A stretch of 64,000 nt of DNA, taken from Pleomorphomonas sp. PLEO (lineage in GTDB: Bacteria; Pseudomonadota; Alphaproteobacteria; Rhizobiales; Pleomorphomonadaceae). The stretch lies in contig NZ_CP166625.1 of NCBI RefSeq assembly GCF_041320595.1, forward strand, positions 4,648,001-4,712,000, written 5' to 3'. A program made the translations under genes and the position numbers. The notes below the pieces were generated by a model. It was not told where the DNA came from. It worked only from the letters and a program-made list of their open reading frames with translations, and did not search any database. Shown one piece after another: positions 18,175-37,931 of the stretch (positions are counted from its first letter, which is position 1; every line of letters begins with the position of its first letter).

Positions 18175-19752
18175 ATGATCGGGCGTTATCTCATCGGTCT
18201 CGATTTCGGGACGCTGTCGGTGCGCGGCGTGCTGATCGATGTCGAATCGGGCGTCGCAGTCGATCACCATGCCTCGTCCTATCACCATGGTGTCATGAGC
18301 GGATCGCTTGCCGACGGAACGCCGTTGCCGTCCGGCTTTGCCCTGCAAGACCCTCGCGACTATCTCATTGCCGCCGAAGAGGTATTGGCCCGCCTCGGAA
18401 AAGATCGCCATATTCTGGCGATCGGTGTCGATTTCACCGCCTCCTCGCCACTGCCGACGACGGCCGACGGCACGCCATTGTCGGAGTTGATGCCCGGTGA
18501 GCCGCACGCCTACGTGAAGCTCTGGAAGCATAGCGCCGCCCAGCGTTACGCCGATGCGATCAACGCCGCCGGCGGCGCATTCCTCGATGACTTCGGCGGC
18601 CGACTGTCGGGCGAATGGCTCCTTGCCAAAGCAGCGCAGGTGGCCAACGAGGCACCGGCGGTATGGGCGGCGACCGAACGTTTCATTGAGGCCGGCGACT
18701 GGATGGTGATGCGGCTCACCGGCTGTGAGGCGCGCAATCTCGGCTTCGCAGCCTACAAGGCACAGTATTCTTATCAAGAGGGATATCCCGCCGGCATCGT
18801 GCCCGATCTTGACGCCCGCCTTGCCCGGCCGTTGCCGGCCGGTAGCCCCGCCGGCGAACTCACCGGCGAATGGCGCCAGCGCACCGGCATCAGAGGGCCA
18901 GCGACGGTCGCGGTGGCGATTATCGACTCGCACGCCGTTCTGCCGGCGATTGGCGCCGTCGAGGACGGCACCATGGTCGGGGCGCTGGGCACGTCGGCGG
19001 CCTACCTCTTTCTCGCCGAACACCGCCTCGCGTTGCCGGCCGGTCTCGAAGGCGTCGCATACGATGGTTCATTGCCGGGCTTCTGGCTCTATGAGGCAGG
19101 GCAAGCGGCCTTTGGCGACCTCCTCGCCTGGTTCGTCCGGACCTTTCCGCGCGGTCCCGATCTCGCGGCGAGCTTTGCTGCCTACAACGCGGAGGCGGCG
19201 GCGATCGCACCCGGCGACAATCACCTCGTCGGGCTCGACTGGTGGAATGGCAATCGCGTTCCCTATGCGGATTCCCGTTTGTCCGGGCTGCTGATGGGCT
19301 TCGGTCTCGACACCACCGCCGCTGGCATCTATCGGGCGCTGATGGAGGCGATCTGTTATGGAACGCGTCAGGTTCTGGAGCTGGCCACCGCCGGCGGCCT
19401 TGGCACGCGGCGGGTGGTGATGACCTCCGGTCTTGCCGAAACCAATCCGTTGCTGGTGGCGATCATGGCCGACATCCTCGGCCGGGAGATCGAACTGCCA
19501 GTGATCGCCCACGCCACGGCGACGGGCGCCGCCATCCATGGCGCCGTCGCGGCGGGCGTCGTCGCCGATTTCGTCGAGGGCGCCGCGCGCTTCGGGGCGC
19601 GATCGCGGCGGCGTTTCCATCCCGACGCGGAGCGAGCAGCGCGCTATCAGCCGCTATTTTCCACCTATTGCGAACTGGCCGGGCTGGAACCGGTGCACGC
19701 GGCGATGCGCCGCATCGGTCCACTGGCCGGCGGGACTTCCGACACCCCGTGA
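18175..19752 (+). CDS. FGGY-family carbohydrate kinase, ribulokinase-like
   Basis: A 525-residue sugar kinase close to AraB-type ribulokinases. It opens YLIGLDFGTLSVRGVLID and has the ribulokinase-like FALQDPRDYL, AIGVDFTASSPLP, HAYVKLWKHSAAQ and GDWMVMRLTG blocks, then a C-terminal ATP region (GLAETNPLLVAIMADILGR, HATATGAAIHGAV). I start it at the ATG at 18175, behind a GGGGAGCGAGGAA ribosome site; a GTG at 18106 is unlikely. No isomerase or epimerase is nearby, so the substrate may be a ketopentose or ketohexose taken up by the downstream FrcBCA-like system. Likely repressed by the divergent ROK protein. Confidence 0.88.
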   Translation: MIGRYLIGLDFGTLSVRGVLIDVESGVAVDHHASSYHHGVMSGSLADGTPLPSGFALQDPRDYLIAAEEVLARLGKDRHILAIGVDFTASSPLPTTADGTPLSELMPGEPHAYVKLWKHSAAQRYADAINAAGGAFLDDFGGRLSGEWLLAKAAQVANEAPAVWAATERFIEAGDWMVMRLTGCEARNLGFAAYKAQYSYQEGYPAGIVPDLDARLARPLPAGSPAGELTGEWRQRTGIRGPATVAVAIIDSHAVLPAIGAVEDGTMVGALGTSAAYLFLAEHRLALPAGLEGVAYDGSLPGFWLYEAGQAAFGDLLAWFVRTFPRGPDLAASFAAYNAEAAAIAPGDNHLVGLDWWNGNRVPYADSRLSGLLMGFGLDTTAAGIYRALMEAICYGTRQVLELATAGGLGTRRVVMTSGLAETNPLLVAIMADILGREIELPVIAHATATGAAIHGAVAAGVVADFVEGAARFGARSRRRFHPDAERAARYQPLFSTYCELAGLEPVHAAMRRIGPLAGGTSDTP

Positions 19753-19819
19753 AGGCCGCCGAGCCACAGCGCGATAACGGCATGCCCTCCATTGGAGCCC
19801 TCCCGCCCAGAGCTACTTT

Positions 19820-19835
19820 TGGATAGAAGTATACA
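19820..19835. promoter_or_regulatory. Candidate ROK operator, copy 2
   Basis: TGGATA at 19820-19825 and TATACA at 19830-19835 with a four-base spacer match copy 1 except for one arm base. It lies about 120 bases before the FrcB-like gene and suggests the transporter genes have their own regulated promoter after the kinase gene. Confidence 0.55.
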
Positions 19836-19886
19836 AATATAGCTCGTTTACGTTTGACTTCATCCTTAATAGGTGTCAAATCGAAT

Positions 19887-19929
19887 TGGCCTTGGAGGAA
19901 GGCCATGGAGCCGAAGAGGAATCGGCTCC
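19887..19929 (+). promoter_or_regulatory. Two perfect hairpins in the leader of the FrcB-like gene
   Basis: TGGCCTT (19887-19893) pairs with AAGGCCA (19899-19905) and displays GGAGG in its loop. GGAGCCGA (19907-19914) pairs with TCGGCTCC (19922-19929). An in-frame ATG at 19905 sits six bases after the looped GGAGG, 16 codons before the ATG I use at 19953. This may be a translational control element or an alternative start. Confidence 0.5.
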
Positions 19930-19952
19930 GAACAAAAAACCGGGAGGAAACT

Positions 19953-20975
19953 ATGCAGACTTATCGTCACGACGGGTCTCGTCGCGCACTGTCGCGGCTC
20001 ACGGCGGGCTGTGCCGTCTTCGCTCTCGCTTTCGGCCTCGCCGGAGCAGTCAGCGTGTCCTACGCCAAGGCTGATGGCGTCATTGTTGGCCTTGTGACCA
20101 AGACCGAGGTCAATCCATTCTTCGTCAAGATGCGCCAAGCGGCCGAGGCGGAAGCCAAGACAAAGGGGCTGACGCTGATCGCCCGTGCCGGCAAGTTCGA
20201 CGGCGACAATGAAGGCCAGGTGGCAGCCATTGAGGACCTGATTTCCGCTGGCGCCAAGGGCATCCTGGTGACACCGAACAACTCCTCGGGCATGCTCAAC
20301 GTCATCAAGAAGGCCCGCGATGCCGGCGTGCTGGTGATCGCACTCGACACCGCCACCGACCCGGCCGACGCGGTCGACGCTACGTTTGCAACCGACAATC
20401 TTCAGGCCGGCGTCCAGCAGGGCGCCTATGCCAAGGCGGCTCTCGGCGACAAGAAGCCGGTGATCGCCATGCTCGATGGAACGCCTGGCGGCACGGTCGA
20501 TACCTTCCGCCATGACGGCTTCCTGAAGGGCTTTGGCATCGCCGAAGGCGATCCAGCCATTGCCGGCGCCGCCATTACCAATGGTGCGCAGGACAAGGGC
20601 CAGGTCGGCATGGAGAACCTTCTGTCCAAGAACGGCGATATCAACGTCGTCTACACCATCAACGAGCCAGCAGCGGCCGGCGGTTACGCGGCGCTCAAGT
20701 CTTTCGGCAAGGAAAAGGACGTGGTCCTGACCTCGATCGACGGCGGCTGTGCCGGCGTGCGCAACGTCAAGGCCGGCATCATCGCCGCGACCGTGATGCA
20801 ATTCCCCTACAAGATGGCATCGATGGGTGTCGACGCGGTTGCCGAGTATGCCGCAAGCGGCAAGAAGCCGTCCGGCTTTGTCAACACCGGCTCCTACCTC
20901 ATCACCGACAAGCCGATGCCGGGCCTCGACTCAAAGGATAGCGAGTGGGGCCTCAAGAACTGCTGGGGCGATTGA
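19953..20975 (+). CDS. FrcB-like periplasmic sugar-binding protein
   Basis: A 340-residue periplasmic-binding-protein-type-I sugar receptor with a Sec signal peptide (cleavage near AKA-DG). It resembles rhizobial FrcB: VTKTEVNPFFVKM at the mature start, VIALDTATDPADAVDATFAT, TINEPAAAGGYAALKS, SIDGGCAGVRNVKAG and the terminal LKNCWGD. FrcB binds fructose, ribose and mannose in Sinorhizobium; the ligand here is inferred only as a monosaccharide. GGGAGGAAACT just before 19953 supports this start. The permease and ATPase genes follow after a hairpin. Confidence 0.9.
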   Translation: MQTYRHDGSRRALSRLTAGCAVFALAFGLAGAVSVSYAKADGVIVGLVTKTEVNPFFVKMRQAAEAEAKTKGLTLIARAGKFDGDNEGQVAAIEDLISAGAKGILVTPNNSSGMLNVIKKARDAGVLVIALDTATDPADAVDATFATDNLQAGVQQGAYAKAALGDKKPVIAMLDGTPGGTVDTFRHDGFLKGFGIAEGDPAIAGAAITNGAQDKGQVGMENLLSKNGDINVVYTINEPAAAGGYAALKSFGKEKDVVLTSIDGGCAGVRNVKAGIIAATVMQFPYKMASMGVDAVAEYAASGKKPSGFVNTGSYLITDKPMPGLDSKDSEWGLKNCWGD

Positions 20976-21050
20976 CCCCGGCCTGAGGCCATAGGGACAT
21001 CTGGCGTCAAGCGGGTCTGCCTTCCCCTGGACCGACCGACTGATGCCTTC

Positions 21051-21086
21051 ACGGACCGGCGGAATATCTCCCCTCCGCCGGTCCGT
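21051..21086 (+). repeat. 13-bp perfect hairpin between binding protein and permease genes
   Basis: ACGGACCGGCGGA (21051-21063) pairs with TCCGCCGGTCCGT (21074-21086) over a ten-base loop. It ends about 30 bases before the permease ATG and has no T tract, so it is more likely to protect the upstream binding-protein mRNA or attenuate than to terminate fully. Confidence 0.7.
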
Positions 21087-21115
21087 CTTCATCTCATTTC
21101 TGTTGCGAGGTCCCC

Positions 21116-22102
21116 ATGAGCAGCGCAACCCCGTCCGCCCCGGGCACTGACGACGGGCTATTTTCCCGAACCAAGGCCATCCCGGCGGTTGGGCCAATTC
21201 TGGTTCTGCTGGCGTTCTGTTTGGTGTTCGCCATCACCAATCCGCGTTTTCTGGCCCCACACAACATATCGATCATTCTGCAGCAGACCATTGTGGTCGG
21301 CACGCTGGCCATCGGCCAGACACTGGTGATCTTGACCGCCGGCATCGATCTAGCCGTCGGCGCCATTTGCGTGCTCGGAACCATCGTAGCGGGAAAGCTC
21401 GTCAATCTCGGCTACGATCCGATGCTGTCGATGCTGTTCGCAATCGTCTTGTGCACGCTCTCGGGCCTTGTCGCCGGTGGACTGGTGAGCCGGCTCGCCT
21501 TGCCACCCTTCATCGTCACCCTGGGCACTCTCGGCATATTGACGGCGGCGTTGCGCCTCATCTCCAAGGGCGGCGCCTTTCCGGTCCAGGATGACTTTCT
21601 CGGGCTGACGGGTAACACTTTCCGCGTCGGCAGCTTCATCCTCACCTACGGCGTGGTTGCCATGCTGTTGCTTTATGCGATGGTCTGGTACCTGCTCAAC
21701 GAAACGCGTTGGGGACGCCACGTCTACGCCATCGGCAACAATCCCGAAGCGGCGCGGCTGGTCGGCATCCCCATTCGGCGCCACCTCTTGCAGGTCTATG
21801 CCCTGGCCGGCCTTATCTACGGCATCACCGCCTGGCTCGCCCTCGGCCGCATCCCGAACGCCGATCCCAACGCACTCCAAACCGCCAACCTCGATTCGAT
21901 CACCGCCGTGGTGATTGGCGGCACTAGCCTGTTCGGCGGACGCGGCGGCCTCGTGGGGACGCTGATAGGCGCCCTCATCGTCGGCGTTCTCCGCAACGGC
22001 CTGACGCTGGCCGGCATCGACCCGCTGTGGCAGGACCTCGTCACCGGCATTCTGGTGATCGTCGCCGTCGCCTTCGACCAGCTTTCCCGCAGGAGGCGCT
22101 GA
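21116..22102 (+). CDS. FrcC/RbsC-like sugar ABC permease
   Basis: A 328-residue BPD_transp_2 permease with eight to ten membrane segments. It shows GQTLVILTAGIDLAVGAI, the FIVTLGTLGILTAALRLIS span, ETRWGRHVYAIGNNPEAARL (the coupling loop) and IGGTSLFGGRGGLVGTLIGA, all typical of ribose/fructose permeases. Its TGA shares one base with the ATG of the ATPase gene. Confidence 0.92.
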   Translation: MSSATPSAPGTDDGLFSRTKAIPAVGPILVLLAFCLVFAITNPRFLAPHNISIILQQTIVVGTLAIGQTLVILTAGIDLAVGAICVLGTIVAGKLVNLGYDPMLSMLFAIVLCTLSGLVAGGLVSRLALPPFIVTLGTLGILTAALRLISKGGAFPVQDDFLGLTGNTFRVGSFILTYGVVAMLLLYAMVWYLLNETRWGRHVYAIGNNPEAARLVGIPIRRHLLQVYALAGLIYGITAWLALGRIPNADPNALQTANLDSITAVVIGGTSLFGGRGGLVGTLIGALIVGVLRNGLTLAGIDPLWQDLVTGILVIVAVAFDQLSRRRR

Positions 22103-22908
22103 TGTCCGCGCTCACCGCTACCCAGGAAACCCGAGGCGCAGAATCCGCCCGCAACGTGCTTGAAGCCCGCGGCATCGTCAAAAGCTACGGTCACGTCGTC
22201 GCCCTCGACGGCGTCGATTTCGATCTGCGCGCCGGCGAAATTCTGGCTGTCGTCGGCGACAATGGCGCCGGCAAATCGACGTTAATCAAGACGCTGACCG
22301 GCGCGGTGATGCCGGACAGCGGCGAAATCCTGCTCGATGGCCAGCCCGTGCACTTCAGGGGGCCTCTCGACGCTCGCCATCGCGGCATCGAGGCGGTCTA
22401 CCAGGATCTCGCCGTGGCACCAGCGCTCGACATTCCGAGCAACCTTTTCCTCGGACGCGAACTGCTGTCGCCGGGCATTCTTGGCAGTGTCTTTCGACAT
22501 CTGGACAAGCGGCGCATGCGCGAGGAGGCGGAAAAGGCCATGGCGGAACTGAAATTCCGCCTGCCGTCGATCGCCAGCCGCGTCGAGAATCTGTCGGGAG
22601 GCCAGCGCCAGGGCGTCGCCGTCGCCCGGGCGGCGGTATTCGCCCGCAAGCTGGTCATCATGGATGAGCCCACCGCCGCGCTGGGCGTGCGGGAAACCGG
22701 TCAGGTGCTGGAACTGATCCGGGCGATCCGCGAGCGTGGCCTGCCGGTTGTGCTGATCAGCCACAACATGCCGAACGTTTTCGAACTCGCCGACCGTATC
22801 TGCATCATGCGCCTCGGTCGACGGGCGGCGGTCGTATCACCCAAGACCCATACCATGGCCGACGTGGTGGCGATCATGACCGGGGCCGTCAAGATCGAGG
22901 CAGGTTGA
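22102..22908 (+). CDS. FrcA-like single-domain sugar ABC ATPase
   Basis: A 268-residue ATPase with a single nucleotide-binding domain, as in FrcA and unlike the two-domain RbsA. Walker A is [12 protein letters not shown], the signature is LSGGQRQGVAVARA, Walker B is LVIMDEPTAALGV and the H-switch is LISHNMPNV. The ATG at 22102 overlaps the permease stop by one base (TGATG); the frame stays open further upstream within the permease. It completes the FrcBCA-like importer and converges on the DeoR gene nine bases away. Confidence 0.92.
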   Translation: MSALTATQETRGAESARNVLEARGIVKSYGHVVALDGVDFDLRAGEILAVVGDNGAGKSTLIKTLTGAVMPDSGEILLDGQPVHFRGPLDARHRGIEAVYQDLAVAPALDIPSNLFLGRELLSPGILGSVFRHLDKRRMREEAEKAMAELKFRLPSIASRVENLSGGQRQGVAVARAAVFARKLVIMDEPTAALGVRETGQVLELIRAIRERGLPVVLISHNMPNVFELADRICIMRLGRRAAVVSPKTHTMADVVAIMTGAVKIEAG

Positions 22909-22916
22909 CCGAAGCT

Positions 22917-23744
22917 CTAGCCAGAGCCCGCCTCGCCGTCGTCCGGCACAACGACGACGAGCGTGCCGGCGGTCTCGAGAGCGGTCTGGATATCGAGCGG
23001 CGGCGGCGCGTCGGTGACCAGCGCGAAGACGCGCTCGAGAGAGGCGACCTTGGCGAAGGCGTGGCGCCCGAATTTGCGGCTATCGGCCAGGACGATCGTC
23101 CGCCGCGCCGCCTCGATCATCGCGGCCATCATGGTGGCTTCGGAGAGATGGCTGGTCCAGAAACCGCCGGCGTCGACGCCGCCAACGCCGATGACGGCCG
23201 TGTCGGCGGTGATGGCTCCGGTACCGACGAAACCGATCGGACCGAGCGTCACATGGGCACCGCTCCGGATCTCGCCGCCGAGCAGGTAGAGGTTGAGGAT
23301 GGCGGCCGGCGGGACGACCGGCGGCAGCCCGAGATTGTTGGTGACGATGGTCAGGCGCCGCCGCATGTCCAACGCCGCAGCGAAAGAAATGGTGGTGGTG
23401 CCGCCATTGACCAGCAGCGTCTCGCCGTCGGCGATCAACGCGGCCGCCGCCTGCCCAATGCGTGTTTTTGCCGCATGGTGCGACTTCATGCGGAGATCAA
23501 AGGGAGTGTCTGCAGTCGCCATGCTAGAGGCAGGAAGAGCGCCGCCGTGGATGCGGCTCACCAGTCCCTGCTCGGCCAGTATGTCGAGGTCACGACGGAT
23601 GGTGTCGAGCGACACGTCGAAGCGCGTGCTCATGTCGGTGACGGTAATTTGCCCCAATTGCTGGGCAAGACGAAGAATATCGGCCCGTCGCCGCGCGGGC
23701 AACGTTGCATCCGAACCACTCTTCTCAAGGTCCTCTGTCGTCAT
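22917..23744 (-). CDS. DeoR/GlpR-family transcriptional regulator
   Basis: A 275-residue sugar-metabolism repressor. The DeoR helix-turn-helix ITVTDMSTRFDVSLDTIRRD and the following ILAEQGLVSRIHGGA are at residues 33-70. The C-terminal DeoRC domain resembles a ribose-5-phosphate isomerase fold (LLVNGGTTTISFAA, VIGVGGVDAGGF, VLADSRKFGR) and normally binds a phosphorylated sugar. It is divergent from the ABC/ADP-kinase/aldolase operon and probably controls it. Confidence 0.9.
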   Translation of the reverse strand: MTTEDLEKSGSDATLPARRRADILRLAQQLGQITVTDMSTRFDVSLDTIRRDLDILAEQGLVSRIHGGALPASSMATADTPFDLRMKSHHAAKTRIGQAAAALIADGETLLVNGGTTTISFAAALDMRRRLTIVTNNLGLPPVVPPAAILNLYLLGGEIRSGAHVTLGPIGFVGTGAITADTAVIGVGGVDAGGFWTSHLSEATMMAAMIEAARRTIVLADSRKFGRHAFAKVASLERVFALVTDAPPPLDIQTALETAGTLVVVVPDDGEAGSG

Positions 23745-23955: not shown

Positions 23956-25272
23956 ATGACTGACAATGACGATCATGTCGGTAAGCCCGCGGCTGTCGGG
24001 CGCCGTCAGTTCCTGAAAGTGGCAGGCATCACCACAGGCGGCGTATTGGCCGCGCCAGCGATCCTGAAGTTCACGTCGATCGCTTCCGCCGCGGACCGCA
24101 CCAACGTTACTTTCGCCAGCGCCAAGTTCTTCGGCAAGCGTACCGTTGCCGAGATGGTGGATGTCTTCAACCAATCCCAGAGCCGCATTCTCGTCCGTTA
24201 CGACGAGCTGCCGCCTCCCAGTTCCTCTACCGAAGTGCATCAGGGATTGGTGCAGCGTCTTGCCAAGAAGGATGGCTCGCCGGACGTCTTCACTCAGGAC
24301 GTCGTGTGGATCGCCGAGTTCGCCGGCGCCGGTTGGGCCTTGCCGCTCGACGAATATGTCACCGCCGACGAAGCCGGCGCCTATTTCCCTGGCGTGCTGG
24401 CTGCCTGCAAGTGGCAGGGCAAACTGACGGCCCTGCCCTGGTACGTCGACAGCGGCATGCTCTACTACCGCAAGGATCTCGTCTCCTCGGCGCCCGAGAC
24501 CTGGGAACAACTGGTCGCCGCGGCGACCGATCTGGTCAAGGCGGGCAAGGTGAAGACCGGCTTCTCCTGGCAGGCCAAACAGGCCGAAGTGCTGATCTGC
24601 GACCTCGTCGAGTTCGTAACGTCCAACGGTGGCAGCATTCTCGGCGATGACGGCAAGACCGTGCACATCGCCGATGACGCGGCGATCGAAGCCGTGCAGT
24701 TCATGTACGACACAATTGAAAAGTACAAGATCAGCCCGCCGGATGTCCGCAGTTGGGACGAGGAACCCTCGCGCACGCCGTTTACCGGCGGAGACGTCGC
24801 CTTCCTGCGCAACTGGTCCTACGTCTATTCCATCTGCCAGGACAAGACGGCTTCGTCGGTGGTCGACAAGGTCGGCGTCGTGCCGCTGCCGCACTTCGCC
24901 AAGGGCAAGAGCGCTGCCTGCCTTGGCGGCTATCAGTATGGCGTCAACGCTTCCACCAAGAATCGGGATGCGTCGGTCGAGTTCCTGAAGTGGCTGTCGA
25001 GCCCAGAAACGCAACTGCTGTTCGCCACCGAACTTGGCCTCGCTCCCAGCCGACCAGCGGTGTTCGACAGCGCCGAGCTTGGCAAGGCTCAGCCGTTCAT
25101 GCAGACGCTGAAGCCGGTGTTCGTCGGCGCCACGGCACGCCCGGTCACGCCGAAATACTCGCAGGTCTCGCTGGCGCTGCAGTCGGCCGTCTCGAAGGCG
25201 GTCACCAACGGCAATGTCGCCGAAGCCCTCAAGGAAGCCAAGACCAAGATCGAGAGCATCGTCGGCGCATGA
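23956..25272 (+). CDS. Family 1 sugar ABC solute-binding protein, Tat signal
   Basis: A 438-residue MalE/UgpB-type binding protein. The N-terminus has a Tat motif (GRRQFLKVAGITTGG) and a cleavage-like ASA-AD. The mature part has VVWIAEFAGAGWALPLDEY, ALPWYVDSGMLYYRKDLV and a C-terminal FLKWLSSPETQ block characteristic of family 1. The frame is open far upstream, but GGGAGAGAACGC precedes this ATG. Its TGA overlaps the permease ATG (ATGA). It heads the operon with an ADP-dependent kinase and an aldolase-like protein; ligand unknown but presumably a sugar. Confidence 0.9.
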   Translation: MTDNDDHVGKPAAVGRRQFLKVAGITTGGVLAAPAILKFTSIASAADRTNVTFASAKFFGKRTVAEMVDVFNQSQSRILVRYDELPPPSSSTEVHQGLVQRLAKKDGSPDVFTQDVVWIAEFAGAGWALPLDEYVTADEAGAYFPGVLAACKWQGKLTALPWYVDSGMLYYRKDLVSSAPETWEQLVAAATDLVKAGKVKTGFSWQAKQAEVLICDLVEFVTSNGGSILGDDGKTVHIADDAAIEAVQFMYDTIEKYKISPPDVRSWDEEPSRTPFTGGDVAFLRNWSYVYSICQDKTASSVVDKVGVVPLPHFAKGKSAACLGGYQYGVNASTKNRDASVEFLKWLSSPETQLLFATELGLAPSRPAVFDSAELGKAQPFMQTLKPVFVGATARPVTPKYSQVSLALQSAVSKAVTNGNVAEALKEAKTKIESIVGA

Positions 25273-26216
25273 CAACGCTTCCGTCCGCTGGCCTTGCGGC
25301 CGGCAGCCGACGGAGCACACGGCTAGGGCGGAGGAGTCGCGCCGAAAGGTGGGCACCTCTGCTCTTCCTCCTGCCCGCGGTCTTCACCCTCGCCACCGTC
25401 TCCGTTTATCCCGTTCTCGACGGCATGCGCCTTTCCTTGCGCAATACCATGCTATCGACCCAGGAAGACGAATTCGTCGGTCTTTCCAACTACATCCGCC
25501 TGACGGGCGATCCGCAGTTTTGGTCGGCTTGGCAGCACACCATGCTGTTTACCGCCGCCTCGACACTGCTCGAGACCGCGCTCGGCCTGGCCATGGCACT
25601 GGTTCTCTATGAGACCTTCAAGGGACGAGGCTGGGTGAGGGCCGCCATGCTGGTTCCCTGGGCCATCCCTACGGTAGTGACCTCGAAGATGTTCGGCTGG
25701 CTGTTCGATGGCCAGCACGGCGTCATCAACTGGCTTTTGTTGCAAAGCGGCCTGATCGATAACTACATCAACTGGTACGGCGACAGTCGGACCGCTCTCC
25801 TGACCATCATCATCGCCGACGTTTGGAAGACCACGCCCTTCATGGCGTTGTTGCTGCTCGCCGGGCTGCAGACGGTCCCGCATTCGCTGGTCGAGGCCTC
25901 CCGCATCGACGGCGCCGGTCCCTGGCAGTCGTTCTGGTCGATCCGGCTGCCGCTCCTGTTCACGCCATTGCTGATCGCCGGCATGTTCCGTGCGCTCGAC
26001 GCCTTCCGCATCTTCGATCTCGTCTACGTGCTGACCGGCGGCGGGCCGGCCGATTCCACCGAGGTGCTGTCGACCTTGTCCTACAAGGTGCTGTTCTCCG
26101 GTTTGGACTTCGGCTACGGCAGCGCCCTTTCGGCGGCCATGTTCATCACCGAAGCGCTCATCGCCCTCTGCTTCGGCCTTTTCATCGTCCGCCGCATGCG
26201 GCGCGACAACGGTTGA
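25269..26216 (+). CDS. MalF-type sugar ABC permease
   Basis: A 315-residue six-span permease. After a basic N-terminal tail it has ERWAPLLFLLPAVFTLATVS, later the coupling EAA loop VEASRIDGAGPWQSFWSIRLP and the LTGGGPADSTEVLS block typical of UgpA/MalF proteins. It overlaps the binding-protein stop by four bases and is followed closely by the second permease. Confidence 0.9.
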   Translation: MTTLPSAGLAAGSRRSTRLGRRSRAERWAPLLFLLPAVFTLATVSVYPVLDGMRLSLRNTMLSTQEDEFVGLSNYIRLTGDPQFWSAWQHTMLFTAASTLLETALGLAMALVLYETFKGRGWVRAAMLVPWAIPTVVTSKMFGWLFDGQHGVINWLLLQSGLIDNYINWYGDSRTALLTIIIADVWKTTPFMALLLLAGLQTVPHSLVEASRIDGAGPWQSFWSIRLPLLFTPLLIAGMFRALDAFRIFDLVYVLTGGGPADSTEVLSTLSYKVLFSGLDFGYGSALSAAMFITEALIALCFGLFIVRRMRRDNG

Positions 26217-26226
26217 GGAGGTGAAA

Positions 26227-27072
26227 ATGCTCTCCTCTTGGCGCCTGCAGCTCCTGATGACCAGGATTGCGCTCTACATCGCCTCGACTCTGATCGTCGT
26301 CTGGTCAGTGGCGCCCTTCCTCTGGCAGCTCTCCACCTCGTTCCAGGAGGATCGGCTGCTATCCTCGCCAACGCCGAACTTTCTGCCTTGGCCGGGAACG
26401 CTCGACCACTTCCGCAATATCTTCGTCGAAAAGCAGTTCCACCTCTACATCATCAACTCGGCCATCGTCGCCGGGCTCACCACGCTGTTCTGCCTCGCCA
26501 TCGGCGGTGCCGCTGCCTTCGCGCTAGCCCGGCTGCGCGTCTACTATCACTTCGGCATCCTCGGCCTGATCCTGTCGGTATCGATGTTTCCGCAGATCGC
26601 CATCGTCGCGCCGCTCTACCTGACGGCCTCGGCGCTCGGGCTGATGAACACCTATACCATTCTCGTCATCATCTACCTCTCGCTCGGCCTGCCGTTGGTG
26701 ATCTGGGTGCTGTTCGGCTACTTCCAGACCATCCCCCGCGAGATCGACGAGGCGGCCATTATCGACGGCGCCGGACCTCTACGCCTGATGATCTCGGTCA
26801 TCCTGCCGATGTCGCTGCCCGGCTTCGTCACCACCGGCCTGCTCGCCTTCATCATGGCCTGGAACGAATTCATGTTCGCGCTCGCCTTCACCTCGGGCGT
26901 CGAGCGCCAGACCATTCCCGTCGGCATCGCCAACTTCACCAACCTCTACTACGTGCCCTGGGGTGATCTCGCCGCCGCCTCGGTGGTGGTGACGCTACCG
27001 CTGGTCATGCTGGTACTCGCCTTTCAGCGCTGGATCATCCAGGGGCTGACGCAGGGCGCGGTCAAGGAATGA
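26227..27072 (+). CDS. MalG-type sugar ABC permease
   Basis: A 281-residue six-span permease. It has the VWSVAPFLWQLSTSFQ opening, an EAA loop (EIDEAAIIDGAGPLRLM) and FIMAWNEFMFALAFT, the usual MalG/UgpE features. I start at ATG 26227, which follows GAGGAGGTG; a GTG six bases earlier lies inside that ribosome site. Its stop overlaps the kinase ATG by four bases. Confidence 0.9.
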   Translation: MLSSWRLQLLMTRIALYIASTLIVVWSVAPFLWQLSTSFQEDRLLSSPTPNFLPWPGTLDHFRNIFVEKQFHLYIINSAIVAGLTTLFCLAIGGAAAFALARLRVYYHFGILGLILSVSMFPQIAIVAPLYLTASALGLMNTYTILVIIYLSLGLPLVIWVLFGYFQTIPREIDEAAIIDGAGPLRLMISVILPMSLPGFVTTGLLAFIMAWNEFMFALAFTSGVERQTIPVGIANFTNLYYVPWGDLAAASVVVTLPLVMLVLAFQRWIIQGLTQGAVKE

Positions 27073-28397
27073 CGATCATGAACAGCTCCCTGGCCCTTCC
27101 CGTGTCATCGATCGACTGGACCGGCGCCTATGATCGGCTCGCCGCCGAGGTGCCGATGATCGCCGCCGCCGCGACGAGGCTCGTCACAGGCTTTGCCGTA
27201 TGTCTCGACCGGCGCATCGATTTGCATGCCGTGGCACCGATCTTGGCCGAACATTCCGAAGCTGGCGCCCGCCGCCTGTTTGCCGAGCTCATGGCGCGCG
27301 CCAAAGTCGGCCGTGGCGGCGAAATGCTCGTGGATGATTGGCCGGACGGCGCCGCCTTCTTCGATCCGCATACGCTGCCAGGTGGTATGGCGATCGGCGG
27401 CACCTCGGCGCAGGCAGCCTGGACACTGGCAGCAATCGGTGCGCCGTCTCTGCTCGCTCTCGGGGAGACGGGTCCTGAGGAGCTCGCCGCGTTGCACCCC
27501 GGCATCGGCTTGGCTGAAAGCGAGACGATGCTCGGCTCGCCCCAACGTCGCTGGCCGGCGCTCCGCGACAAACCGGCCCATTACATCGTCGAGTATACCG
27601 CCGGCCGCTCCCTACCTGGCTTCGTACCGGACCGATCGACCCGCATCATCGTCCGCTTCGCCGACGAGGCCTTGCATGAGGACGCGATGTTCGACCGCTG
27701 GGTCGCCGCCAACGGGCACCAACTGCGTGCCGGCCTGCTATCATCGCCCAACACCGTTCCTCTTGCCGATCTGCCACCAGCGCTCGCCCGCCTGTCGGCG
27801 GCGGCGCGGGCCTGGCGCGGCGCCGGCCTGTCGGTCGTCCACCTCGAACTCGGCGCCTATCCTTGGCCGGGCACGCTCGACGCCACGCTGGAAAGCTTGG
27901 CGCCCGAGGTGACGTCGATCGGACTCAATCAGAACGAACTGCGCGGTCTGGTGCCAGGCGAGGATCCACTGGCCCAGGCGGACGAGCTGTCGCGCCGGCT
28001 CGGTGTCGATCGCCTCGTCGTCCACGCCGATGGCTGGGCGCTGGCGATTACCCGTGGCGACCCGTCTATCGAGTTCGATGCGCTCGCCATGGGCTGTCTG
28101 CTCGCGGCGTCCCGCGCAGAGGCCGGGTCCCCTTCGTCTCAGCCGCGCGTCCCCGCTGGCGCCACTTTCGAACCGTTGCCGCGGCCGCCATCAGAGGGCT
28201 TGCCCGATGGGCGGCAAGTGGTGGTGGTCGCCGCCCCCTACCTGTCGAAGCCGGCCTCGACCGTCGGTCTCGGAGACAGCTTCACCGCGGGCTGCCTGCT
28301 CGTTCATTCCCTCCCCCGTCACAGGCCGGTTCTCGGCGCGATGGGAGAGATCGCCCGCCTAAACGCGGCCGCTGACGAAACCGACCGGAGGCATTGA
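27069..28397 (+). CDS. ADP-dependent phosphofructokinase/glucokinase-family sugar kinase
   Basis: A 442-residue protein I assign to the ADP_PFK_GK family. It has a GG-rich substrate block (GGMAIGGTSAQAAWTLAAIG), the HxE motif in VVHLELGAYPW, the NxxE-like GLNQNELRGL, and the catalytic GXGD loop STVGLGDSFTAGCLLV near the C-terminus, in the family's order and length. Known members phosphorylate glucose or fructose-6-phosphate with ADP, mostly in archaea and animals. Here it is embedded between a permease (ATGA overlap) and the ATPase (one-base overlap), so it most likely phosphorylates the imported sugar or a derivative. Substrate and ADP use are not proven. Confidence 0.78.
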   Translation: MTIMNSSLALPVSSIDWTGAYDRLAAEVPMIAAAATRLVTGFAVCLDRRIDLHAVAPILAEHSEAGARRLFAELMARAKVGRGGEMLVDDWPDGAAFFDPHTLPGGMAIGGTSAQAAWTLAAIGAPSLLALGETGPEELAALHPGIGLAESETMLGSPQRRWPALRDKPAHYIVEYTAGRSLPGFVPDRSTRIIVRFADEALHEDAMFDRWVAANGHQLRAGLLSSPNTVPLADLPPALARLSAAARAWRGAGLSVVHLELGAYPWPGTLDATLESLAPEVTSIGLNQNELRGLVPGEDPLAQADELSRRLGVDRLVVHADGWALAITRGDPSIEFDALAMGCLLAASRAEAGSPSSQPRVPAGATFEPLPRPPSEGLPDGRQVVVVAAPYLSKPASTVGLGDSFTAGCLLVHSLPRHRPVLGAMGEIARLNAAADETDRRH

Positions 28398-29485
28398 TGG
28401 CGCCCGTTTCCCTCAAATCCGTCACCAAGGCTTATGGCTCGTTCGAGGTGATCCACGGCATCGACCTCGAGATCGAGGATGGCGCCTTCGTTGTCCTGGT
28501 CGGACCGTCGGGCTGCGGCAAATCGACCCTGCTCCGCATGATCGCCGGCCTTGAGACCATCAGCCACGGCGAAGTGGTGATCGACGGCGAAGTCGTGAAC
28601 GACGTTCCGCCCAAGCATCGCGACATCGCCATGGTGTTCCAGAATTACGCCCTCTATCCGCATATGACGGTGGCGGAAAACATGGGCTTCTCGCTGCGGC
28701 TCGCCAAAGTGCCGGCGGCGGAGGCGGCGGACAAGATCAGGGCCAGCGCCAGCATACTCGGCCTCACCGATCTGCTCGACCGTTATCCTCGCCAGCTGTC
28801 GGGTGGCCAGCGCCAACGCGTCGCCATGGGGCGGGCGATCGTCCGCAACCCTAAAGTCTTCCTGTTCGATGAACCGCTCAGCAACCTCGATGCCGCCTTG
28901 CGCATGCAGATGCGGGTCGAAATCGCCGAGCTGCATCAAAAGCTCGGCACCACCATGATCTACGTGACGCACGATCAAGTAGAGGCGATGACGCTGGCCA
29001 CCAAGATCGCCGTCGTCAACAAGGGCAAGCTGGAGCAGGTGGCGTCGCCGGTTCGCCTCTACGAACGTCCACAGAACCTGTTCGTTGCCCGGTTCATCGG
29101 CTCGCCGCAGATGAACATCCTGTCCACCCGCATTGTCCGCGCGACGGACGGCGGCGGCGAGGCGCGCCTTGCCGATGGATCCATCATCGCACTGCCGTGG
29201 CCGGTGCCGCTCGGCGAGGGGAACGAGCTGCGCGTCGGAATCCGCCCGGAAGCCCTGATGCTTTCGGAGGGCGGCGCCCTCGGCGGCCGCGTGACGCTTG
29301 CCGAACACCTCGGCGGCCTGACGCTGGTCCACATCGCTCTCACCGACGGCACGCCAGTGGTCCTGCAGGCGGTCGGCGGTCCCACCGTCACCGCTGGCGA
29401 CCTTGTCCGACTGCGCGTTGATCCGGCGGGATTGCACCTGTTTGACCCCGATGGCCGCCGCATCGCCGCTCCCGGTGAGAACTGA
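28397..29485 (+). CDS. UgpC/MalK-type sugar ABC ATPase
   Basis: A 362-residue ATPase. Walker A is [14 protein letters not shown], the Q-loop [14 protein letters not shown], the signature [15 protein letters not shown], Walker [14 protein letters not shown], and the H-switch VTHDQVEAM. The C-terminal TOBE/OB regulatory region includes FIGSPQMNIL and IRPEALM. The ATG at 28397 shares one base with the kinase stop. It powers the importer made by the upstream binding protein and permeases. Confidence 0.93.
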   Translation: MAPVSLKSVTKAYGSFEVIHGIDLEIEDGAFVVLVGPSGCGKSTLLRMIAGLETISHGEVVIDGEVVNDVPPKHRDIAMVFQNYALYPHMTVAENMGFSLRLAKVPAAEAADKIRASASILGLTDLLDRYPRQLSGGQRQRVAMGRAIVRNPKVFLFDEPLSNLDAALRMQMRVEIAELHQKLGTTMIYVTHDQVEAMTLATKIAVVNKGKLEQVASPVRLYERPQNLFVARFIGSPQMNILSTRIVRATDGGGEARLADGSIIALPWPVPLGEGNELRVGIRPEALMLSEGGALGGRVTLAEHLGGLTLVHIALTDGTPVVLQAVGGPTVTAGDLVRLRVDPAGLHLFDPDGRRIAAPGEN

Positions 29486-29562
29486 CCTTTCCTCCAAACC
29501 GTCCCGGAGAACCGGCGACGGACCAAGTCCAACCCCCAAAACCAAAACCCAAGGAGAATTCG

Positions 29563-30567
29563 ATGTTCCGCATGAATGCCAAGCTCGCCAAGATCCGGGC
29601 CGGCAACTACGCCAAGGGCGATTTCATTATCGCCGACGCCAAGGACGGCGACATGTCCAACCCGATTCCGGGAACCGGGCCAATTCGCGACAAGGAAGGC
29701 AAGTTCGTCCGCTTCCGGACGCGGGCCGAGTTCCTGGAAATGATCACCGAGCTGGTTCACCAGGATCTGCTCGACATCATGCTGGTGTCCTGCTCCAACC
29801 TCGAGCTGTTGCAGAAAGCTGGGGCCTTCAAGGGCAGCCCGGTGCGGCCGGCGTTCCGCGCCAACGACACCACCGACATCTGGGGCGCCCGGCCCAACGG
29901 CTACGGCAAGCTCGGCCCGTCGCGCCCGTTCCGCACGCCGTCCCTGAAGCAGATCGCCGAAGCCAAGATCGGCAACCTCGGCCTCTACTCGATCACCTTC
30001 GTCAACGACATCGAGGCCGACCTCAGGTCGCTCGAAGCCTTCAGCGATTTCCGCGAAGACGCGTCCAAGAATGGCATCGAATATTTCCTGGAAGTGTTCA
30101 ATCCCAACGTCGAATGCGGTATCGCGCCGGCCGACGTCGGCTCGTTCGTCAACGACAATCTGGCCCGCTGTCTATCCGGCGTGCTCCAGGCCGACCGCCC
30201 GCAGTTCCTGAAATATCCCTACAACGGCGCCAAGGCGCTGGAGGAACTCGCTTCCTATGACCCGCAACTGGTGGTCGGCGTGCTGGGTGGCGGTGCCGGC
30301 ACAACGCGCGACACCTTCGAGCTGCTGTTCCAGGCCGAAAAATACGGTGCCCGCGTCGCGCTGTTCGGCCGCAAGATCAACCTTGCCGAAAGCCAGCCCG
30401 ACATGGTCCGCCATATGCGCGCGGTGGCCGACGGTGGCATGAAGCCGCTCGAAGCCGTCAAGTCCTACCACGCCGTACTCAAGGAAAAGGGCATCGCTCC
30501 GGTCCGCAGCCTCGAAGACGACAGCGTCGTCACCGAGACAGTCCTGAAGGCCGCGGCCTCCGCCTGA
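29563..30567 (+). CDS. Aldolase-like TIM-barrel protein of unknown substrate
   Basis: A 334-residue cytosolic protein that looks like a class I aldolase-type TIM barrel but matches no family I can name firmly. Features seen are a candidate Schiff-base lysine in FLKYPYNGAK (K217), a phosphate-loop-like GVLGGGAGTTRDTFELL and ALFGRKINLAES at the barrel end, resembling FbaB/DeoC/LacD proteins. It has a clean AAGGAGAATTCG ribosome site and is the last gene before a strong terminator. Following an ADP-dependent kinase, it could cleave the phosphorylated sugar, but that is inference. Confidence 0.6.
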   Translation: MFRMNAKLAKIRAGNYAKGDFIIADAKDGDMSNPIPGTGPIRDKEGKFVRFRTRAEFLEMITELVHQDLLDIMLVSCSNLELLQKAGAFKGSPVRPAFRANDTTDIWGARPNGYGKLGPSRPFRTPSLKQIAEAKIGNLGLYSITFVNDIEADLRSLEAFSDFREDASKNGIEYFLEVFNPNVECGIAPADVGSFVNDNLARCLSGVLQADRPQFLKYPYNGAKALEELASYDPQLVVGVLGGGAGTTRDTFELLFQAEKYGARVALFGRKINLAESQPDMVRHMRAVADGGMKPLEAVKSYHAVLKEKGIAPVRSLEDDSVVTETVLKAAASA

Positions 30568-30590
30568 CGCTGCTTCCCGAGCGACCTCGC

Positions 30591-30624
30591 GCCCGGAGCG
30601 TTCCTCCCGCTCCGGGCGTTTTTT
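30591..30624 (+). terminator. Strong rho-independent terminator
   Basis: GCCCGGAGC (30591-30599) pairs with GCTCCGGGC (30609-30617) and is followed by a T run at 30619-30624. It ends the ABC/ADP-kinase/aldolase operon. Confidence 0.93.
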
Positions 30625-30953: not shown

Positions 30954-31973
30954 ATGGCACGCACCAAAGGTAGACTGACACAACGCGATATCGCCAAGCT
31001 GGCAGGCGTCAGCCAAGCGGCGGTCTCGCTCATCCTGAACGGTGGCGCCGAGCAGGCGCGTCTGTCCGCCGAGACCCGCGAGCGGGTGATGGCCGTGATC
31101 CAGGGAACCGGCTACGTTGCCGACCCCCTGGCCCGCCAGATGCACAAAAAGGGCAATCAGCTTCTCGGCGTCTTCACCTACGAACCGGTGTTCCCCAACG
31201 CCCAAGCCGACTTCTACACGCCGTTTCTGCTCGGCATCGAAGAGGAGGCCGAGCGTCTCGGCTATGACCTCCTGCTGTTTACCAGCACGCCGGTCGAAGA
31301 TGGCCGACGCAAGCTTTTCCGCAAGGAGAGCCGACTCCGCCTCGCCGACGGTTGCATTGTCATCGGCCGCGAGCAGGACCGCGACGAACTCGCCAAGCTG
31401 GCGGCCGATGGCTACCCATTCGTGACGATCGGCCGTCGTGACGACGATAGCGAACAGATTCCTTACGTCGGCGCCGACTATCTCACCGTCACTCGCGATC
31501 TGGTACGGCGCGCCCATGACCTAGGTCATAGCCACCTTCTCTACGTCGGTGACGGTGCCGGCGCCGAGTCCCTGATCGACCGCTGGCAGGGATTCAGCGA
31601 AACGGTAGCCACGCTCGGCCTCACCGGCGACCGTACCGCCCCGATGGTCGAACCGTCGGTGATCATCGAGCGGGCGCTGGCTTCGGGAACCACGGTGTTG
31701 TTCTGCGAAGTCGCCGGCGACGCGCTGGCGCTGGCCCGCGAAATCGATACCCGGCAGCTCGCCTCCCGACTTTCCGTCGTCGCCATGGGAAGCGCGGCAT
31801 CGTTGTCCCTCCCCTCGCTCCGGCTTTCAGGTTTCGAGCTGCCCCGCGAAGAAATGGGGCGCCAGGCCGTACGGACGCTGAGCGCCATCATCGAAAACCG
31901 CTCCATCGAGCGGCAGATCCTGCTGCGGCCGACCATGGTCGAAGGCCAAACCCTTGAAAAACGCGAACAATAG
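30954..31973 (+). CDS. LacI-family transcriptional regulator
   Basis: A 339-residue repressor. The LacI helix-turn-helix LTQRDIAKLAGVSQAAVSLI is at residues 8-27, followed by the hinge helix and a type I periplasmic-binding-like sensor domain (FYTPFLLGIEEEAERLGYDLL, VGADYLTVTRDLV). The perfect palindrome at 30924-30939 is its likely site. The gene lies on the same strand as, and ends just before, the FAD oxidoreductase and sugar ABC genes, so it probably regulates its own operon. Confidence 0.92.
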   Translation: MARTKGRLTQRDIAKLAGVSQAAVSLILNGGAEQARLSAETRERVMAVIQGTGYVADPLARQMHKKGNQLLGVFTYEPVFPNAQADFYTPFLLGIEEEAERLGYDLLLFTSTPVEDGRRKLFRKESRLRLADGCIVIGREQDRDELAKLAADGYPFVTIGRRDDDSEQIPYVGADYLTVTRDLVRRAHDLGHSHLLYVGDGAGAESLIDRWQGFSETVATLGLTGDRTAPMVEPSVIIERALASGTTVLFCEVAGDALALAREIDTRQLASRLSVVAMGSAASLSLPSLRLSGFELPREEMGRQAVRTLSAIIENRSIERQILLRPTMVEGQTLEKREQ

Positions 31974-31980
31974 GTGCGCT

Positions 31981-33594
31981 GTGAAAGAACTGAAGGTTGA
32001 TCTTGTCATCATCGGCGGAGGTCTCGGAGGCGTTGCCTGTGCCCTGGCCGCCAGCCGCTCCGGACTGACGGTGGCGATGACCGAGGAATACGACTGGATC
32101 GGCGGCCAACTGACCAGTCAGGGCGTCCCCCCTGACGAAGCGTCCTGGGTGGAACAGTTCGGCATTACCGCCAGCTACCGGGCGCTGAGGGATGGCATTC
32201 GCGACTACTACCGGCGCAACTATCCCCTGACGCCGACAGCGCGCGCCTGGCGCGAGTTCAACCCCGGTGCCGGCTCGGTGAGCCGCCTCTGCCCCGAACC
32301 GCGCGTTTCGCTCGCGGTCATGGAAGCGATGCTGGCGCCCTACCGCAGTTCCGGGCGCCTCACTGTTCTGCAGCCATTCAAGCCGGTGGCGGTCGACGTC
32401 GACGGCGATCGTGTTCGGGCCGTCACGGTCGCCCACCGCGACAGCGGCCAGCAGATCACCCTGACCGGTCGCTACGTTGTCGATGCCACCGAAACCGGCG
32501 ACCTCCTGCCGCTCTCGGGCACCGAATTCGTCACCGGCTTCGAAGCACGGAGCGACACCGGAGAACCATCGGCGCCGACGGAGGCGCAGCCGCTCAACAT
32601 GCAGGCGGTCTCCTACTGCTTTGCCATGGACCACATCGCCGGCGGTGACTACACCATCGACAAGCCCAACAACTACGAAAGATGGCGGGCTCTGAGGCCC
32701 TCCTTCTGGGGCGCCAACCAACTGAGCTGGCAGTCGCCGCACGCACGGACGCTCGAAACCGTCACCAGTGCCTTCACACCCAATGCCGACGACGACCCGA
32801 TGGCGGTGGTCTCCGACCAGCGGCTCACCCCGGGCGACGACGACCTGTGGATCTACCGCCGCATCGCGGCGCGGCGGAACTTCGTTCCCGGCACCTATGA
32901 CAGCGACATCACGCTGGTGAACTGGCCGTTGCTCGATTATTGCGATGGGCCGATCTTCGGCGTGTCCGAGGATGAGGCGCGGCAGCATCTTGCCAATGCC
33001 TCCGATCTGTCGCGCTCAGTACTCTACTGGATGCAGACCGAGGCACCGCGCCCCGACGGTGGCGTCGGCTATCCCGGCCTCCGGCTACGCAGCGATGTGA
33101 CCGGCACAATCGATGGTCTCGCCCAGGCGCCCTACATCCGCGAATCGAGGCGTATTCGCGCCGAATACACCATCGTCGAGCAGGATCTTTCCTACGCCGT
33201 GCGCGGCGAGCGCGGCGCCGTACACTACGCTGACTCTGTCGGTGTCGGCATGTACAGGATCGACCTGCATCCGTCGACCGGCGGCGACAACTTCATCGAC
33301 GTGGCTTCCTGCCCATTCGAAATCCCGCTCGGCGCTCTACTGCCGCAGCGCATGCAGAACCTGCTGCCGGCCTCCAAGAATATCGGCACCACTCACATTA
33401 CCAACGGCTGCTATCGCCTGCATCCGATCGAATGGAACATCGGCGAAGCGGTGGGCATGCTCGCCGCCTTCTGCCTCGGCAAGGCAACGACACCGCATGC
33501 GGTGCGCGCCGACGCCGGTCTGCTTTCCGAATTTCAAACTCTTCTGACCAGCCAAGGCATGGAACTGCGCTGGCCTGATGTCGTGGGCTACTGA
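31981..33594 (+). CDS. FAD-dependent oxidoreductase (FAD_oxidored family)
   Basis: A 537-residue flavoprotein. The N-terminal dinucleotide motif is LVIIGGGLGGVACALAASRS, followed by EYDWIGGQLTSQG and later GRYVVDATETGDLLPLSG, consistent with PF12831-type oxidoreductases. A C-terminal SKNIGTTHITNGCYRLHPIE block closes the FAD domain. I place the start at GTG 31981 because it gives the normal N-terminus; upstream TTG is unlikely. It follows the LacI gene by seven bases and precedes the sugar ABC genes. It probably oxidises the imported compound, but substrate and acceptor are unknown. Confidence 0.83.
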   Translation: MKELKVDLVIIGGGLGGVACALAASRSGLTVAMTEEYDWIGGQLTSQGVPPDEASWVEQFGITASYRALRDGIRDYYRRNYPLTPTARAWREFNPGAGSVSRLCPEPRVSLAVMEAMLAPYRSSGRLTVLQPFKPVAVDVDGDRVRAVTVAHRDSGQQITLTGRYVVDATETGDLLPLSGTEFVTGFEARSDTGEPSAPTEAQPLNMQAVSYCFAMDHIAGGDYTIDKPNNYERWRALRPSFWGANQLSWQSPHARTLETVTSAFTPNADDDPMAVVSDQRLTPGDDDLWIYRRIAARRNFVPGTYDSDITLVNWPLLDYCDGPIFGVSEDEARQHLANASDLSRSVLYWMQTEAPRPDGGVGYPGLRLRSDVTGTIDGLAQAPYIRESRRIRAEYTIVEQDLSYAVRGERGAVHYADSVGVGMYRIDLHPSTGGDNFIDVASCPFEIPLGALLPQRMQNLLPASKNIGTTHITNGCYRLHPIEWNIGEAVGMLAAFCLGKATTPHAVRADAGLLSEFQTLLTSQGMELRWPDVVGY

Positions 33595-33619
33595 AGCCTT
33601 CAGAACTACGAGGGGCAAA

Positions 33620-34894: not shown

Positions 34895-34903
34895 TCGACG
34901 ATC

Positions 34904-34934
34904 CCCGGGCGGAGTCCCAAGACCTCCGCCCGGG
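34904..34934 (+). repeat. 11-bp perfect hairpin between binding protein and permease genes
   Basis: CCCGGGCGGAG (34904-34914) pairs with CTCCGCCCGGG (34924-34934) over a nine-base loop. No T tract follows. It sits directly after a binding-protein stop, like the hairpins at 9062-9156 and 21051-21086. Confidence 0.7.
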
Positions 34935-35015
34935 TCTCTCCCCCTAGTCCCGCTGGACGACGCCGGACCGATGCCGCCGCAATGGCGATGTCGCCGGTGT
35001 CTCGAGGAAGCGCAA

Positions 35016-36780: not shown

Positions 36781-36840
36781 GGCGGTACGGCGGACTGTTC
36801 AGCCGCCGACCTTCCTTCGGGATATGAAAAGGAAATAACG

Positions 36841-37914: not shown

Positions 37915-37931
37915 CTGAAGGACATTCGACA

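Follow-up and report, generated by a model that had tools for sequence, protein, structure and literature searches.

Kinases of the PF04587 (ADP_PFK_GK) family are known mainly from the archaeal ADP-glucokinases and ADP-phosphofructokinases, which serve glycolysis, and from the animal ADPGK; to our knowledge, the characterized members use ADP. In pathways of the fucose/rhamnose type (FucI-FucK-FucA), an isomerase and an FGGY kinase are followed by a ketose-1-phosphate aldolase, FucA, a metal-dependent class II enzyme, while the LacC-LacD tagatose pathway and the YihV-YihT pair of the sulfo-Embden-Meyerhof-Parnas route combine a ribokinase-superfamily kinase with a class I aldolase, and the erythritol route relies on an FGGY kinase (EryA) and a GlpD-like enzyme (EryB). 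The present analysis concerns an operon of Pleomorphomonas sp. PLEO (positions 23956-30567 of a 64,000-nt stretch of contig NZ_CP166625.1, hereafter the window, whose numbering is used unless another locus is named), carried by a 5.48 Mb genome in a single contig. Its genes follow one another in the order MalE-type binding protein, two permeases, PF04587 kinase, UgpC-type ATPase and a triosephosphate isomerase (TIM) barrel protein of an unnamed family, and the operon points to an undescribed breakdown route for a sugar or sugar alcohol.

How does this locus compare with the described systems? It resembles YihV-YihT and LacC-LacD in joining a ribokinase-superfamily kinase to a predicted class I aldolase, and LacD/YihT-like enzymes are an alternative partner of the window-type kinase, but PF04587 takes the place of PfkB and the barrel has no PF01791 match. 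On balance, we lean towards a scheme in which the kinase, standing in for PfkB, turns a ketose into a ketose-1-phosphate, which the barrel then cleaves into dihydroxyacetone phosphate (DHAP) and an aldehyde.

The kinase and the barrel

The kinase gene (27069..28397, + strand) encodes 442 residues with the motifs HLE (258-260), NQNE (287-290) and GLGDSF (400-405) in this order, as reported in an initial annotation made from the sequence. It also overlaps its neighbors as described there, its start at 27069 lying within the stop of the preceding permease gene (26221-27072), and the ATPase open reading frame (ORF), with a listed start at 28394, overlapping its stop at 28397. The annotation had made its family assignment hinge on a PF04587 match and on the GXGD aspartate, and it is borne out by both: Pfam gives E 3.8e-14 (52.7 bits, for a curated cut-off of 27), and D403 is kept in 26/26 aligned relatives. 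With the single sequence as query, the Pyrococcus furiosus ADP-glucokinase 1ua4 is found at 5.8e-4, and with a profile of the 26 relatives (A1) at 2.1e-22; all 14 distinct PDB sequences that this profile matches at E <=0.01 are ADP-dependent kinases or reconstructed ancestors thereof. The structural modelling called for by the annotation gave an AlphaFold model with a predicted local distance difference test score (pLDDT) of 89.6, for which Foldseek ranks 1-22 are all ADP-dependent sugar kinases (best E 2.1e-23, 14-18% identity), followed by ribokinases, adenosine kinases and further members of the ribokinase superfamily. A chance motif match is ruled out by these Pfam, profile and Foldseek results.

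Conservation follows the same pattern, with D47, E85, R189, R196, E260 and E290 invariant, like D403, in the 26-row alignment, and R192, H258 and the R206-equivalent kept in 25/26; position 287, the first of the NXXE motif, is Asn in 7/26 (the window protein among them) and Ser in 19/26. Family and catalytic residues are thus established by computation, and the enzyme is probably ADP-using. It shares with the archaeal enzymes and ADPGK the family, the predicted fold, the GXGD Asp, the HXE and NXXE Glu residues and the sugar-site Asp and Glu, and differs from them, beyond its low identity, in standing within a bacterial ABC (ATP-binding cassette) sugar operon beside a predicted aldolase. The equivalog models for ADP-glucokinase (NF010642, 36.5 for a cut-off of 387) and ADP-phosphofructokinase (TIGR02045, 18.3 for a cut-off of 408.1) are not reached. 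The genome has no second PF04587 match. A role as an ordinary glucokinase for glycolysis is disfavored, as it would leave the conserved aldolase partner unexplained.

The barrel gene (29563..30567, + strand; 334 residues) follows the kinase and ATPase genes, and encodes the lysine, K217, singled out in the initial annotation. Of the profile searches proposed there, the kinase side succeeded and the barrel side did not: no Pfam family matches the barrel up to E=1, PF01791 (DeoC/LacD aldolases) included, and the NCBIfam matches are sub-threshold (ADH synthase type, E 0.034; LsrF type, 0.053; an archaellum protein, 0.12, clearly by chance), the LsrF equivalog NF006081 scoring 12.8 bits for a cut-off of 297. 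Membership of PF01791, LsrF or DHDPS was considered and dropped, each lacking a curated match (DHDPS, E=1). The model (pLDDT 90.9) shows eight strands arranged as a barrel, K217 lying on the sixth (216-219), and its structural neighbors are, as the annotation anticipated, Schiff-base enzymes: LsrF, archaeal class I fructose-bisphosphate (FBP) aldolase and ADH synthase (2yce, 1w8s, 2qjg) come first, then LacD and YihT, at 12-16% identity. A profile of the family (A2) finds LsrF at 0.0055, and hhalign places K217 on K203 of LsrF (E 1.5e-4, probability 51%).

K217 occupies its column in 56/56 rows of the A2 alignment, and K217, D25, K27, R99, N148, E177, G242, G243, G269 and R270 are present in 92/92 barrels. 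The predicted TIM barrel, the beta6 lysine and the GG and GR motifs of beta7 and beta8 are the features expected of a class I (Schiff-base) aldolase; fold prediction and conserved lysine are established by computation, and K217 is the predicted Schiff-base residue. In common with LsrF (3-hydroxy-2,4-pentanedione-5-phosphate thiolase) and the DhnA/FbaB-type aldolases, the barrel has the TIM fold, the beta6 Lys (K217/K203) and the GG/GR phosphate-loop motifs; it differs from them by its identity of about 14%, the absence of a Pfam model, a context of sugar kinases instead of autoinducer-2, and invariant residues of its own (D25, K27, D28, R99, N101, W107, R110, R124). Matches to it occur in 47 plasmid records, where the named features read 'hypothetical protein', with the exception of a 28% partial match whose gene name differs.

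Conserved linkage and exchange of kinases

A scan of genome contigs with the barrel gave 223 related stretches, and the partner counts use the best 80 of them; the nearest among these 80 come from a proteobacterial metagenome-assembled genome (95% identical) and from three Pleomorphomonas species (91-94%). Several flanks in this set are short and many loci are close relatives; partner genes were sought by tblastn at 1e-8 with a few query proteins rather than family models, and the distances given run between matched stretches, not gene ends. A PfkB gene lies 3-164 nt from the barrel match in 53/80 loci, and a homologue of the window kinase is found in 22/80, at 77-1324 nt in 20 of them and at 2.3 and 6.5 kb in the other two (the match of one locus, L076, is broken into two pieces). 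No locus has both kinases, and five have neither, three of these with full flanks (L012, L034, L080). Operon structure, conserved linkage and mutual exclusion with PfkB are established by computation.

The same association appears when starting from the kinase. Among 297 genomes of the same order, the A1 profile detects 20 kinase genes in 15 genomes, 13 of which also carry the barrel (present in 36 genomes in all); 13/20 kinase genes have a barrel gene at a distance of up to about 2.5 kb, and 5/20 stand beside a LacD-type aldolase gene. Four of the 20 matches were flagged with an internal stop, in 4/4 at the very match end, past the GXGD motif. This count and that of the 80 loci are not independent, as the genomes overlap (for example L103, L105, L106, L107 and L110). 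At the level of the phylum, 349 genomes include two with the kinase and four with the barrel, the window's own genome being counted in both. The initial annotation had proposed that the operon imports a sugar, phosphorylates it with ADP and splits it with the barrel protein, and since the kinase-barrel linkage is conserved well beyond this genome, the logic of import, phosphorylation and splitting is well supported, while the ADP donor, the sugar and the aldol cleavage are parts of that proposal that we infer.

In a barrel tree of 92 rows (the 80 loci, nine plasmid loci, two further barrels of this genome and the window), which was built quickly and has long branches, the window-type kinase as partner requires four state changes, three of them forced by starred branches; partner labels denote presence in the locus at 1e-8, three being set by hand (L088 as PfkB, the window as window-type kinase, L119 as FGGY only). 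The barrel thus remained in place through several swaps of kinase type, a pattern suggesting that the PfkB and PF04587 kinases fulfil one and the same function. The barrel family being commoner with PfkB in the 80 loci, and found elsewhere with FGGY, the PF04587 kinase is one option among the various kinases that this predicted aldolase has as neighbors.

Further arrangements of the kinase were seen. In two of the same-order loci (L106, L110), paralogous PF04587 kinases stand about 10 kb apart, one with the barrel and the other with a LacD-type aldolase, a short-chain dehydrogenase/reductase and a sugar-phosphate isomerase; in an Aureimonas plasmid (L088), about 15 kb separate a kinase-LacD pair from a barrel-PfkB pair. 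A Streptomycetaceae plasmid (L089) holds a kinase relative (35%) with genes for a class II aldolase/adducin and a 2-dehydropantoate reductase in its vicinity, and no barrel was found by tblastn within the 19-kb stretch.

Operon surroundings and other contexts of the barrel

The other genes of the operon, all on the + strand, encode a sugar ABC transporter. The MalE/TMBP-type binding protein (23956..25272, starting with the ATG at 23956; PF01547 1e-40) has the trehalose/maltose-binding protein 1eu8 as nearest solved structure (5.4e-75), both scans using input from 23995 on, without the first 13 residues. Its amino terminus carries a twin-arginine-like signal, RRQFLK, TIGR01409 scoring 14.9 bits, below the cut-off of 16.7, with these 13 residues left out. 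The permeases are of the MalF/UgpA type (25269..26216; PF00528 1.5e-18) and of the MalG type (26221..27072; PF00528 7.9e-14; best NCBIfam MalG, 9.8e-35, under its cut-off), and the UgpC/MalK-type ATPase (28397..29485) exceeds the UgpC model NF008653 (471 bits for a cut-off of 432), its ORF being listed from a TTG at 28394 with an ATG at 28397. Directly 3' of the barrel gene, a terminator-like hairpin (30589..30624, + strand; 12-pair stem 30589-30619 and a T-run) probably ends the operon; over the whole scanned region, such sites show no excess (4 found, shuffle mean 5.1), and promoter-like sites are near shuffle level (2 found, shuffle mean 1.2). Divergent from the operon, a DeoR/GlpR-family gene (22917..23744, - strand; PF00455 1.6e-37, PF08220 8.4e-16) encodes its probable regulator, and a repeat search of the intergenic region between them gave short repeats only, without clear meaning.

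Upstream lies a ROK-FGGY-RbsBCA cluster, comprising a ribulokinase-like FGGY kinase (18175..19752, + strand; PF02782 1.3e-32; NF003154 416.7 bits, under the cut-off of 428) and a ribose-type ABC transporter with binding protein, permease and ATPase (19953..22908, + strand); scan inputs were 18178-19752 for the kinase and from 19944 on for the binding protein. It is homologous to a Shinella cluster that itself holds a barrel and PfkB, with identities of 80-89% for the binding protein, 79-81% for the permease and 59-63% for FGGY where found; in the window, this set adjoins the barrel with the PF04587 kinase in place of PfkB. The identity of the sugar was also sought through the binding proteins, and the nearest structures, of ribose/allose and trehalose/maltose type, do not settle the ligand. 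Downstream, a second sugar operon (31954-39850) includes an FAD-dependent oxidoreductase (PF12831), ABC-transporter-like ORFs, a PfkB kinase and an ORF that reads as SIS-like and has no Pfam match at 1e-8.

What do the other contexts of the barrel family tell? This genome has two more barrel genes, one beside PfkB (L118) and one (L119, G000:C1:1403500-1423000) sharing its operon with an FGGY kinase and with a fucose-isomerase-like protein (PF02952) that weakly resembles the sulfoquinovose isomerase SftI (96.5 bits against 700). The latter operon has the reaction order of the fucose/rhamnose-type pathway with a predicted Schiff-base barrel in the place of FucA, and for this reason points to a ketose-1-phosphate; the window differs further in its PF04587 kinase. 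In Agrobacterium, Vibrio nigripulchritudo (where an aldehyde dehydrogenase gene follows the barrel) and Shinella, an FGGY kinase and a GlpD-type dehydrogenase accompany the barrel, as in erythritol-type routes, with the barrel where the ery operon has isomerases; this context points to a 2-keto-1-phosphate since GlpD chemistry would imply oxidation beside CH2OP. Going by the established chemistry of these families, each of the contexts would make sense with a 2-keto-1-phosphate as common intermediate. Beside the second barrel, the FGGY kinase gene of L118 (11181-12748, - strand) appears split over two overlapping frames in this assembly, possibly a frameshift or a pseudogene.

A proposed ketose-1-phosphate route and its alternatives

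In the scheme towards which we lean, a sugar, or a sugar alcohol oxidized to a ketose elsewhere, would enter through the MalEFGK-type ABC transporter, the neighboring ribose-type transporter being perhaps a second entry route. The PF04587 kinase, whose place a PfkB kinase takes in most of the 80 relatives examined, would then phosphorylate the ketose, most likely on C1 and probably at the expense of ADP. Finally, the barrel would form an imine through K217, hold the phosphate with its beta7/beta8 GG and GR motifs, and cleave the ketose-1-phosphate into DHAP and an unphosphorylated aldehyde. ADP use, the C1 position, the ketose nature of the substrate, aldol cleavage and the products are what we infer from family, fold and gene context.

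Several observations weigh against this scheme. The sequence likeness of the barrel to known aldolases is weak, hhalign with FbaB, YihT and the Aureimonas LacD-type protein being not significant. Two of the 20 same-order kinase genes are near neither aldolase gene in the stretches examined: no barrel or LacD-type gene was found at the kinase locus of one genome (G050, L109) by Pfam scan of 10 neighboring ORFs and tblastn, nor beside the second kinase copy of another (G261, L120) by tblastn only, both genomes holding barrel genes elsewhere. Among the kinases, 19/26 have a K or R one residue upstream of the column aligned with K179 of the reconstructed AncMsPFK, compatible with a phosphorylated acceptor. 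The LacD-type partner counts in favor of the scheme, the Aureimonas protein having 8tnf as nearest solved structure (3.7e-40), then YihT; the 8tnf entry is titled sulfohexulose-1-phosphate aldolase, with DUF2090 protein as molecule name. As reported in PMC12421959, however, the sulfofucose pathway of the Paracoccus strain Merri is of the Entner-Doudoroff type and a kinase-aldolase route there only a possibility, so that the title of 8tnf does not demonstrate an activity.

The FGGY neighbor weighs against the scheme as well. With flanks of more than 7 kb on both sides, an FGGY gene is present in 7/14 loci with the window-type kinase and in 8/36 with PfkB, an undercount, as in L003 and L004 this gene lies just past the 8-kb flank and is seen in the longer stretches L105 and L103. 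Such frequency would also be in line with two successive phosphorylations, by FGGY and then by the PF04587 or PfkB kinase, and it keeps alive a tagatose-like route, in which FGGY yields a ketose-5- or ketose-6-phosphate, the PF04587 kinase acts at C1 like archaeal ADP-phosphofructokinase, which belongs to the same family, and the barrel cleaves the bisphosphate into DHAP and a phosphorylated aldehyde, as in LacC/LacD. We regard this bisphosphate route as unlikely, although the FGGY-RbsBCA operon adjoins (18175-22908), homologous FGGY and RbsB genes stand near kinase and barrel in L086, L087, L103, L105, L111, L113 and the Shinella operons, and R189, R196 and R192 of the kinase together with R99, R110 and R124 of the barrel could bind a second phosphate. 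FGGY is a frequent neighbor but does not look obligate: it was not found in the remaining 28/36 PfkB and 7/14 window-type loci (at least two of these seven having it further out), no FGGY was found by tblastn at 1e-12 in L106, L107 and L110 (19.5-19.8 kb each), and four barrels (L083, L090, L091, L119) have FGGY with no PfkB or PF04587 kinase found nearby. The active site may argue likewise. PMC7948494 gives K179 and R212 of AncMsPFK as ligands of the fructose 6-phosphate (F6P) phosphate, and the kinase columns aligned with them, indirectly via ancMT, are not conserved (P in 20/26 for K179; A in 10 and H in 6 of 26 for R212), though the K or R one residue upstream of the former in 19/26 tempers this reading. 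According to the same paper, Glu E90 is reported in glucokinases and bifunctional enzymes only; E85 of the kinase, present in 26/26, aligns with the position where ancMT has Glu and its E72A mutant chain has Ala, and we take it to be the counterpart of E90.

The donor and the second step leave room for two other departures. The kinase may have lost its ADP specificity and use ATP in an ordinary kinase-aldolase pathway, which we consider rather unlikely and which is compatible with the reaction scheme that we favor. PfkB kinases, with which the window-type kinase alternates, as a rule use ATP; NXXE is SXXE in 19/26 relatives, though not in the window protein, and the scores lie far under the ADP-glucokinase and ADP-phosphofructokinase equivalog cut-offs. 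However, the kinase retains the Glu residues of HXE and NXXE, the R206-equivalent and the fold of ADP-dependent kinases, and ADP is the donor of the characterized PF04587 kinases that we know of. The barrel, for its part, might be a different Schiff-base enzyme of this fold, resembling a transaldolase, a thiolase or an epimerase, for the step that follows the kinase (an acyl-cleaving enzyme like LsrF, for instance), a quite unlikely option in our view. Its best match in both structure and sequence is indeed LsrF, named a thiolase, at a structural identity of about 14%, but the next structural matches are archaeal FBP aldolase and ADH synthase, a LacD-type aldolase replaces it beside the same kinase family in 5/20 cases, and it fills the aldolase place in the isomerase-FGGY operon of L119.

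In the open PMC literature (titles and abstract starts, among the matches listed), no description of the kinase-barrel pair or of the pathway was found. The occurrence of PF04587 kinases in bacteria is not new, since bacterial genes already carry that name in sequence records and the abstract of PMC7948494 notes such kinases in bacteria; what seems new are the module and the barrel family, and this family, which has no name, accounts for the novelty no less than the kinase does. Tentatively, and with less confidence than we place in the reaction scheme itself, we propose an alphaproteobacterial module in which interchangeable kinases, one of them an ADP-consuming, archaeal-type enzyme working outside glycolysis, make ketose-1-phosphates that a new class I aldolase family would split into DHAP and a free aldehyde. 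The operon places in a bacterial context a kinase family otherwise associated mostly with archaeal glycolysis and with animal ADPGK, and it suggests a function, open to test, for barrel proteins that the plasmid records above list as 'hypothetical protein'. The exchange of PfkB and PF04587 kinases beside one predicted aldolase offers a way to ask why ADP, and not ATP, would be spent on the first step of sugar use, and a new DHAP-type class I aldolase, if true, would be of interest to biocatalysis.

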